A stretch of 64,000 nt of DNA from Miltoncostaea oceani (GTDB lineage Bacteria > Actinomycetota > Thermoleophilia > Miltoncostaeales > Miltoncostaeaceae). Positions 15,550 through 17,605 of this stretch are shown here, in pieces. The stretch is taken from NCBI RefSeq assembly GCF_018141545.1, contig NZ_CP064357.1, positions 124,001 to 188,000 on the forward strand. The letters run 5' to 3'. The notes beneath the pieces were generated by a model that saw only the letters and a list, made by a program, of their open reading frames with translations, did no database searches and was not told where the DNA came from. How positions within the stretch are numbered: the first letter of the stretch is position 1; every line of letters starts with the position of its first letter. Both the position numbers and the translations under genes were made by a program.

Positions 15550-15557
15550 CGAGACGG

Positions 15558-16063
15558 GTGGGCGCGGGGCCACAGGCCTCGGTGGGTGGAGGGCCACAGT
15601 CAGAGTGGGTGCAGGGCCACAGGCGCCGGTGGGTGCGGGGCCATAGCGGCGGTGGGTCCAGGGCCACAGCCCCGGTGGGCGCGGGGCCACAGTCGAGGTG
15701 GGCACAAGGCCACAGGCGAAGTGGGCATAAGGCCACAGGCGGCACCAGGCCCCCGCTCTGGCGAGGGGATCAGGCGGAGGGTGGGCGCAGCCCCACAGCT
15801 CGAGGAGGCCGGCCGGCGGGTGAGGGGCTCGCGCATCCAGCGGAGTCTCCTCAGAGTGGGCGCAGGGCCATAGAACGGCGCCGCGAGGGGCCTCCCGGTG
15901 GGTCCAGGGCCACAGGGGGAGCGCACGAGGCCCCGTCCGGATCCCCTTCGCGGGCCGCGTGGGCCCACCGCCCACCGTTCTCGGGGGCCGGACCCACCGC
16001 GCTATGGCCCTCGGCACACCGTCCTGTGGGGTCGCGCCCACCGGTCTGTGGCCTTCCGCCCAC
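15558..16063. repeat. Iteron-like array: 11 forward and 5 inverted copies
   Basis: An 18-bp motif with consensus GTGGGYGCRGGGCCACAG recurs. Forward copies start at 15558, 15582, 15605, 15629, 15652, 15675, 15698, 15721 (23-24 bp period), then 15781, 15856 and 15898. Inverted copies lie at 15958, 15980, 16002, 16024 and 16046 (22-bp period); the two outer ones are degenerate. The period is not a multiple of three and copies vary in all frames, so this is not coding. Regular spacing near two helical turns, directly upstream of a ribbon-helix-helix gene and an initiator-like gene, fits an iteron origin (oriV) or a plasmid centromere. Confidence 0.85.
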
Positions 16064-16277
16064 CGGCGCCCCCTGGTTTTCCCTGCAACGGAAGGGGATG
16101 TGGCGGACGCCCATGGTTTCCAGGGTCTCCATGGTCCTCAAGGTTCTTCCCGGCGCGGGAAGGACTGATCGGGGGTGGAACCACGACACCACGCACCCGT
16201 GCGTCCACGGACGAAAGGACGCACGGCCTCGACGGCGAATAGGGGACCGGACACCGTCTCCTCCAGGAGGTCAGCAC
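16064..16277. promoter_or_regulatory. Control region between the array and the rep operon
   Basis: About 210 bases, locally a little less GC-rich than the array. It contains CCATGGT twice (about 16111 and 16128), a CTTCCCG/CGGGAAG palindrome near 16146-16162, a strong hairpin at 16197-16226 and finally AGGAGG seven bases before GTG 16278. It likely holds the operon promoter and, if this is an origin, a melting region; the exact promoter elements cannot be fixed. Confidence 0.5.
16197..16226 (+). promoter_or_regulatory. Perfect hairpin in the rep-operon leader
   Basis: CCGTGCGTCC pairs perfectly with GGACGCACGG around a 10-base loop (ACGGACGAAA). It lies 51 bases before the ribbon-helix-helix start. 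It could be an attenuator, a single-strand initiation site or an operator; nothing decides between these. Confidence 0.55.
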
Positions 16278-16571
16278 GTGGCACAGCAGGCCAGCGTCTC
16301 CCCGATAGCCGTCCTGACCGAGTCGGGGGATGGCACGCTGCGCGAGCGGCTCGCCGCGGCCGATCAGAGCACCGTCGTCAACTTCAACGTGCGGATGCGA
16401 CCGCCGCTGCATGAGGCCCTCCAGGTGATCCAGACGCGCCTGCGGCTCTCCGGTGTCCGCTGCAACCGCGTCGATCTGGTCGAGCTCGCCCTGCTCGAGC
16501 TGCTGGAGACCCCGATCGAGGAACTCCCCCAGAGGCTCGCCGGCTTTCCGGCCCGCGGGGAGGAGCGATGA
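16278..16571 (+). CDS. Ribbon-helix-helix protein of the rep operon
   Basis: 97 residues from GTG 16278, with AGGAGG at ideal spacing. The middle has a short strand (VVNFNVRMRPP) followed by two helices (LHEALQVIQTRLRLSG, then CNRVDLVELALLELLE), the order of MetJ/Arc/CopG-type DNA-binding domains. Such proteins control copy number or act as centromere-binding partition factors on plasmids. The stop overlaps the next start by ATGA, so it is made together with the initiator-like protein. It could bind the array upstream. Confidence 0.6.
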   Translation: MAQQASVSPIAVLTESGDGTLRERLAAADQSTVVNFNVRMRPPLHEALQVIQTRLRLSGVRCNRVDLVELALLELLETPIEELPQRLAGFPARGEER

Positions 16572-17605
16572 GCGCACGCCCCGCAGCGGAGCAGACGGTG
16601 CTCGCCGAGCTCGTGGACGCCGACGGCCAGCCCTTCGAGGTCGTCGAGGCTCCCGAGGCGAGTGCGCGGGTGCCCCGCTCTCTTCGTGACCGCGTCGCCG
16701 AGCTCGCCGCCCGAGCGGATGAACCGGCGCCCGCCGGGCCGCGCCCGGCGCCCGCGCCCGCCGCGACGTCGTCCCGGAGCACCAGCCAGCCGAGCTTCAT
16801 CGTCGCCCGGCTCCTCGCCGAGCGTGGGTTCTGGTCGCTGACCCCCGCGCTCCAGCAGGAGTTCGCCGTCGACGATCTGCGCGGGACCCTCGAGGTGATC
16901 CCCTCCCAGCGGGGACTCTCCGGCGGCCGTGAGCGGATCGTCTTCCACGGCCTCGTCTCGCTCTGGGCCGAGGGCCCACGCGACCTGCCTGAGGTGACGA
17001 CGAGCTTCCATGCACTCGCCCAGCGGCTCGGCTGGTCCTGGGGTGGGAGGACCTCCGCGGACATCGCCAGCGCCCTCGAGCTGCTGACGCTGACCGGCTA
17101 CAAGTTCGTCGGCGAGGCGGAGCCCGGCCCGTTCTCGGACATGTTCACCCTCGTCCAGCGGGTGATCACCTGGAAGGGGCCGGCGAGGAGCTCGAACCGT
17201 CACGTGCGGATCGTCTTCAACGAAGCGATCTTCGACTACCTCTCGGACCGCAGCGTCATCCGGCGACTGGACTACGGCGCCGTCAGCCAGATCAAGCCCC
17301 AGCAGCAGCTCGCGCAGGCCCTCCTATTCTTCCTCGACGCCCAGCCCGGCCATCGGCCCCAGCCCGGCGATCGCCTCGAGCGGATCGAGCGCCTCGTCGA
17401 CGGCCGGCTCGCCGCCACCCTCGGCGTCAAGCCCGTCCTCAAGGAGTTCCACCGGCTCCTGCGCACCGCCTGCGCGACGGTCGAGAACGCCTCCGCGCGC
17501 TACGAGCGGGTCTCGATGGAGCCGCGTCGGGCTCAGCGGTTCGCCCGCAACGAACCGCGCTACCTCCTCGTGGCGGTGCGGAACCGGATGATCAAGCTCC
17601 CCTAG
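16568..17605 (+). CDS. Putative plasmid-type replication initiator
   Basis: 345 residues. After a Pro/Ala-rich linker (about 55-75), the body resembles initiators of the RPA/TrfA-like winged-helix class: FHALAQRLGWSWGGRTSADI with LELLTLTGYKF (first domain), HVRIVFNEAIFDYLSDRSV with LDYGAVSQIKPQQQLAQALLFFL (second winged-helix with its long recognition helix), then LGVKPVLKEFHRLLRTAC. Coupling to a ribbon-helix-helix gene and the repeat array upstream support an iteron-binding role. The family assignment is by pattern only; no partition ATPase is in the window. Confidence 0.55.
   Translation: MSARPAAEQTVLAELVDADGQPFEVVEAPEASARVPRSLRDRVAELAARADEPAPAGPRPAPAPAATSSRSTSQPSFIVARLLAERGFWSLTPALQQEFAVDDLRGTLEVIPSQRGLSGGRERIVFHGLVSLWAEGPRDLPEVTTSFHALAQRLGWSWGGRTSADIASALELLTLTGYKFVGEAEPGPFSDMFTLVQRVITWKGPARSSNRHVRIVFNEAIFDYLSDRSVIRRLDYGAVSQIKPQQQLAQALLFFLDAQPGHRPQPGDRLERIERLVDGRLAATLGVKPVLKEFHRLLRTACATVENASARYERVSMEPRRAQRFARNEPRYLLVAVRNRMIKLP

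Follow-up and report, generated by a model that had tools for sequence, protein, structure and literature searches.

The window, by which we mean the whole 64,000-nucleotide stretch analysed here (G000:C2:124001-188000), very probably carries a theta-type replication module controlled by iterons and derived from a plasmid, located on an 816-kb circular megaplasmid. The genome consists of three contigs, C1 (3,679,875 bp), C2 (815,643 bp) and C3 (46,598 bp), and the module is the copy found on C2. Its core is a pair of genes, one for a 97-aa ribbon-helix-helix (RHH)-like protein and one for a 345-aa protein that we consider a replication initiator (Rep), with an array of 11 direct and 3 inverted repeats of about 19 bp upstream of them. 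The designation of this locus as a plasmid-type rep module is well supported, because the Rep family is linked to iterons and to parA/RHH genes, two of its members reach the level of the RPA family, and there is one copy per replicon. In window coordinates the features are as follows.

15557 to 15738, plus strand: eight tandem direct iterons of 19 bp, consensus RGTGGGYGCAGGGCCAYAG, start-to-start distance 23-24 bp.
15780 to 15798 (weaker), 15855 to 15873 and 15897 to 15915, plus strand: three spaced direct iterons, scoring 17.4, 28.4 and 28.8 bits.
16002 to 16064, minus strand: three inverted iterons at 16002, 16024 and 16046 (22-bp spacing), scoring 18.2, 14.3 and 25.6 bits.
16077 to 16088, plus strand: TTTTCCCTGCAA box where the iterons end on the rep side, containing CCCTGCAA at 16081-16088.
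16070 to 16170, no strand: the 100 bp with the lowest GC content in the module, weak candidate for the melting region.
16143 to 16165, no strand: inverted repeat GTTCTTCCCG-3-CGGGAAGGAC, possible operator.
16197 to 16226, no strand: inverted repeat CCGTGCGTCC-10-GGACGCACGG, possible operator or centromere-like site.
16278 to 16571, plus strand: gene for the 97-aa RHH-like protein, GTG start.
16568 to 17605, plus strand: gene for the 345-aa putative Rep, a divergent relative of RPA (PF10134), ATG start.

The two genes lie on the same strand and overlap by ATGA (16568-16571), both score as coding under a compositional model with the replicon as training set, and a GGAGG ribosome site precedes the 345-aa ORF. 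The preliminary description had already paired an RHH-like gene with the 345-aa gene through this overlap beside the array, and it is borne out here, since both ORFs are coding and the array is real. The 97-aa protein has no match in Pfam, NCBIfam, PHROGs or the PDB, and we assign it to the RHH-like proteins because of its similarity to ParA-associated proteins of that type, together with a low-confidence structural model. Its relatives include the RHH-like proteins encoded beside ParA on C3 and in G009 (z about 13; 0 of 1000 shuffles); the ParA-linked RHH of C2 itself is a weaker match (z 5.6). The single-sequence AlphaFold2 model of the 97-aa protein (pLDDT 49) places helices at residues 42-58 and 64-75. 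For the 345-aa protein, which the preliminary description called winged-helix and which would have two such domains in tandem if it is built like RPA, TrfA or Rep_3 initiators, AlphaFold2 with a four-sequence alignment gave a pLDDT of 35 and no usable fold; both models are poor because there are few related sequences.

As in an iteron origin, the array places a series of direct repeats, in the range of about 17-22 bp, beside rep. Ten of the direct copies were used for a weight matrix, which scores the sites within the array at 14-30 bits; run over the 815 kb of C2, it gives 16.9 and 16.6 bits to the best sites elsewhere and 12.3 or less to the remainder. The array is unique on C2. Among the 336 non-coding gaps of C2 it ties for the strongest 18-26-bp periodicity, its equal in self-similarity being a 23-bp triplicate at 84 kb with only three copies. 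The intergenic region around that triplicate (C2:84015-84386) combines the most AT-rich 100 bp of C2 with the three tandem 23-bp repeats, lies immediately upstream of a second SecY gene, not far from where skew places the origin, and is possibly an origin or a regulatory site.

Between the iterons and the genes lie several candidate origin elements. An exact CCCTGCAA is present in 4 of the 9 upstream-side regions that were read, the others being beside the rep genes of C3, G002 and G013, and its chance occurrence is about 1% per 1100-bp region. The motif was picked after inspection and two of the four carriers are close relatives, so its recurrence is suggestive only of a box conserved in these origins. 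AT content within the module peaks at 38% per 100 bp, against 30% for the whole replicon, and 16070-16170 is a weak candidate for the melting region. There is no DnaA box within one mismatch in the window origin, where the best has two mismatches; perfect DnaA boxes are found inside the arrays of G002 and G019. The inverted repeats at 16143-16226, which sit between the array and the start codon of the 97-aa gene, are candidate binding sites for the RHH protein.

The case for an initiator depends on the relatives of the 345-aa protein. The protein itself has no match in Pfam (E<=10), NCBIfam, PHROGs or the PDB, including PDB profile searches. A single-sequence search of 101 genomes found relatives in three others, G018, G003 and G053 (E 4e-9 to 3e-20), and a profile built from four of the sequences so obtained recovered members in 15 of 399 genomes of the class and, in a sample of the phylum, in one genome outside it (start codons of the relatives were picked automatically). 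The genome described here has three members, one on each replicon: at 621 kb on C1, in the window on C2, and at 39.6 kb on C3. The nearest relative of the window Rep, in G180, is 36% identical to it (clade support 100/100) and is followed by parA. When three family members were compared with 72,556 plasmids by tblastn, there was no match.

Two members, that of C3 (27.0 bits) and that of G013 (28.1 bits), are at or above the gathering score of 27 bits for PF10134, with matches spanning about 120-140 residues of the central domain. A search of the whole genome with PF10134 returned nothing, not even the C3 protein, whose 27.0 bits come from hmmscan and which the first-look filter probably missed. 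The preliminary description had named RPA, TrfA and Rep_3 as the profiles to try. The first of these applies to the two relatives and not to the window protein itself, and the other two, TrfA (PF07042) and Rep_3 (PF01051), fall away, neither matching the window protein. No family member matches Rep_3, and only G013 shows a sub-threshold similarity to TrfA (12.5 bits, cut-off 22). The window Rep is linked to RPA by a chain, from the window to G018 and G003 by single-sequence search and from their joint profile to C3 and G013. This link rests on intermediates because the direct comparison of profiles, the window clade against the C3 clade and G013, is weak (probability 24%, E 8.5e-4). Judged from these sequence comparisons, it is well supported that the 345-aa protein is a plasmid-lineage initiator that current databases do not recognise.

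The association with iterons extends through the family. Repeats of the ACCGGGGTAnnCGACTCGCG type lie upstream of rep in C3, G009, G002, G010 and G019, repeats of the ACCnGGGCAGTCnGTGCGATG type directly downstream of it in G018 (two loci), G003, C1 and L090, and other arrays upstream of it in G311 and G013; the repeat type of the window array is GGTGGGYGCAGGGCCACAG. The shared consensus within the C3 clade (5/5) and within the G018/G003/C1 clade (5/5) was judged by eye. Most full-length members adjoin 20-25-bp iteron arrays, and a self-match of at least 0.70 at period 20-25 is found at 8 of 18 rep loci (5 upstream, 3 downstream) versus about 1% of control windows. A ParA gene, an RHH gene or both lie near rep at G018:C57, G180, G010, G019, G013, G009, G002 and C3. 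The C3-type rep and its iterons are shared by G002, G009, G010 and G019, and the C3-type loci also have neighbours in common, MoxR-like ATPase genes and TPP enzyme or acetoacetate-decarboxylase-like genes (C3 L051-L053; loci L096-L099). Because this rep, these iterons and these neighbours recur together, C3 appears to be a plasmid that the family has conserved.

At the chromosomal loci, on C1 and in the single-contig genome G003, the repeats are visibly more degenerate. These copies (C1:621011-621946 and G003:C1:448444-449391) have decayed iterons directly downstream and are likely remnants of integrated plasmids. L090 (JALHRF010000221.1) comes from a metagenome bin labelled Bauldia (Pseudomonadota); its Rep is 77% identical to the C1 copy and has the same iteron type, and the contig is probably misbinned actinobacterial DNA.

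In iteron plasmids the initiator binds the direct repeats and melts a neighbouring region, a helicase is loaded, and pairing of iteron-bound complexes curbs over-initiation (reviewed in PMC4980987). The window module has parts to match: an initiator gene, iterons in both orientations, a conserved box, a stretch of lowest GC content and a small gene, possibly autoregulatory, that overlaps rep. We infer DNA binding, melting and regulation of this kind for the window module. By analogy, the 345-aa protein would attach to the direct iterons, open the less GC-rich DNA next to them, past the conserved CCCTGCAA box, and bring in a helicase of the host or of the plasmid. Rep on the extra and inverted iterons would hold down both firing and copy number. 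The RHH protein would be co-translated just ahead of Rep and, bound to the palindromes at 16143-16226, could repress the rhh-rep operon, link the locus to the ParA of the plasmid, or both.

C2 is an extrachromosomal replicon, circular and separate from the main chromosome. A 770-aa ORF runs in frame across the contig junction and closes the circle, and dnaA lies at the first bases of C1, that is, on another molecule. The preliminary description proposed a minimal rep module on an extrachromosomal or integrated replicon; a plasmid-type module on the former is supported. With gene calls from a home-made caller, the features of C2 outside the module to which we refer are these.

C2:815582-815643 joined to 1-2251: CpaE-like ATPase ORF, 770 aa, beginning 62 bases before the end of C2.
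C2:6155-11119: full-length gene for DnaE (DNA polymerase III alpha) with an intein.
C2:351661-362802 and 489088-502222: two tRNA arrays with most of the 40 tRNA genes of C2.
C2:764.7-766.8 kb: ParB-like gene.
C2:771.6-772.9 kb: ParA gene, then an RHH-like gene.
C2:787066-791868: second replication cassette, encoding a Phage_rep_O-like initiator, a DnaC/IstB-like loader and a CHC2-Toprim-DnaB primase-helicase fusion.

The parA gene sought elsewhere on the contig is present on C2, but it lies 184 kb from the rep module and has its own RHH gene beside it. Its product is 51% identical to the ParA of C3. The parS-like sites on C1 are near the contig end, and on C2 there is no chromosome-type parS within three mismatches.

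If the module is a plasmid rep module, it may or may not be where C2 replicates today, and that it is an active origin of C2 seems to us an evenly balanced proposition. The most serious alternative accepts the module for what it is and concerns only its present activity, namely that C2 took up a smaller RPA-type plasmid, by capture or fusion, and now carries its module as a passenger while replicating from elsewhere, for example from the 787-792 kb cassette with the ParB and ParA-RHH genes at 765-773 kb or from 0-60 kb. We regard this as a real possibility, somewhat short of an even one. Strand asymmetry favours it: by GC skew the best origin falls at about 45-60 kb (most bootstraps at 10-75 kb, a few at 770-810 kb), with the fit at 140 kb reaching 0.58 of the best, and 4-mer asymmetry peaks at 25 kb, with 140 kb at 0.36 of the maximum and the 770-790 kb cluster fitting somewhat better at about 0.67. 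GC skew as a confirmation of the window module as origin thus failed, its axis lying elsewhere, although the skew is weak on C2, where it explains only 8% of the variance, and could have been moved by rearrangement. A complete loader and primase-helicase set at 787-792 kb and a ParA that does not adjoin the rep module point the same way, as do the orphan family members on chromosomes; because C1 and G003 carry members with degenerate iterons, the window module too may be dispensable to the molecule that carries it. On the other hand, the initiator at 787 kb matches Phage_rep_O weakly (E 0.022), no iteron array was found at its cassette, and the window array is intact and unique, whereas the repeats of the chromosomal copies are more degenerate. 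The match that C2 gives in a dnaA search is the DnaC/IstB-like loader of this cassette and not a second dnaA.

A stronger version of the preferred reading, which we think doubtful, would have C2 truly start its replication at the window module and provide, as an iteron megaplasmid, a large share of the replication and translation machinery that it uses. That machinery would comprise DnaE with its intein, the primase-helicase fusion, the DnaC-like loader, 40 tRNAs, a release factor and SecY, and the lineage would be an actinobacterial one whose RPA-like initiators match none of the known plasmids searched.

That C2 is instead a chromid, a secondary chromosome dependent on the window module, as the preliminary description suggested, we consider unlikely. 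Chromids are recognised by three criteria, plasmid-type maintenance, a composition similar to that of the chromosome, and core genes absent from the chromosome (PMC12456017). C2 has plasmid-type replication and partition genes (the Rep module, ParA-RHH and ParB), makes up 18% of the genome, and carries housekeeping-type genes, including those for DnaE, SecY, a release factor and a tRNA nucleotidyltransferase, along with its 40 tRNA genes, a near-complete second set. Its GC content, however, is 70.1% versus 74-76% in nine samples of C1, well beyond a difference of about 1%, and the housekeeping genes tested are second copies: the 45 tRNA genes of C1 cover all 20 types, and C1 further encodes SecY, two release factors and DnaE, the last in two genes. 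No core gene lacking on C1 was found among the tRNAs, SecY, release factors and DnaE, and the only tRNAs unique to C2 are Arg-GCG and a predicted SeC tRNA. Nor did 119 relatives, among them the single-contig genome of the same genus, yield a clear orthologue of the primase-helicase of C2. The name megaplasmid therefore fits C2 better than chromid, a distinction that matters because only recently has any actinobacterium, Embleya, been proposed to possess a secondary chromosome (PMC13152386).

It is very improbable that the pair is no replication module at all and that the RHH and 345-aa proteins are a regulator and its partner (antitoxin-like, for example) beside repeats with a regulatory or structural role. 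Neither protein matches the four databases searched and neither has a confident fold, as such a pair might; against this stand the family-wide coupling with iterons, ParA and RHH, the single Rep-family copy on each replicon and the RPA matches of the relatives. That C2 comes from a different organism and was put together with C1 in error, as contamination, is hardly credible, since the lower GC and second, almost complete tRNA set of C2 and the 3.87% contamination estimate for the assembly are set against a three-contig assembly in which C1 starts at dnaA and C2 is circular, the identity between the ParA proteins of C2 and C3, the same Rep family on all three replicons and the lack of a second dnaA.

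These results provide a large actinobacterial replicon with a recognisable replication module whose initiator is named by no public profile. They also mark out a family of initiators of iteron plasmids, spread through one actinobacterial class, that would escape standard plasmid typing. The family could help to tell plasmid contigs from chromosomal ones when metagenome-assembled genomes of this group are examined, and the module offers an origin for vectors in bacteria that have few or none.

Among known systems, the proposed secondary chromosome of Embleya is, like C2, a large second replicon in an actinobacterium, but it measures 4.2 Mb against 0.8 Mb (PMC13152386), and, unlike a chromid (PMC12456017), C2 departs from its chromosome by 5 points of GC and has no unique core gene among those tested. 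For the window Rep we propose the same role as that of the RPA family, whose cut-off two of its relatives reach. The mechanism proposed here is also that of TrfA and of the Rep_3/RepE/pi initiators, which act beside direct iterons (PMC4980987); unlike those systems, the window Rep does not match Rep_3 and its origin lacks a close DnaA box. In partition cassettes of the ParG/omega type ParA is joined to an RHH protein, and the window RHH is related to the ParA-adjacent ones of C3 and G009, but it is paired with rep. The layout, and the layout alone, resembles copG-repB of pMV158, in which a small repressor gene lies directly upstream of rep and is cotranscribed with it (PMC5717011). That plasmid replicates by a rolling circle, whereas the iterons of the window and the relationship of its Rep to RPA suggest theta replication.
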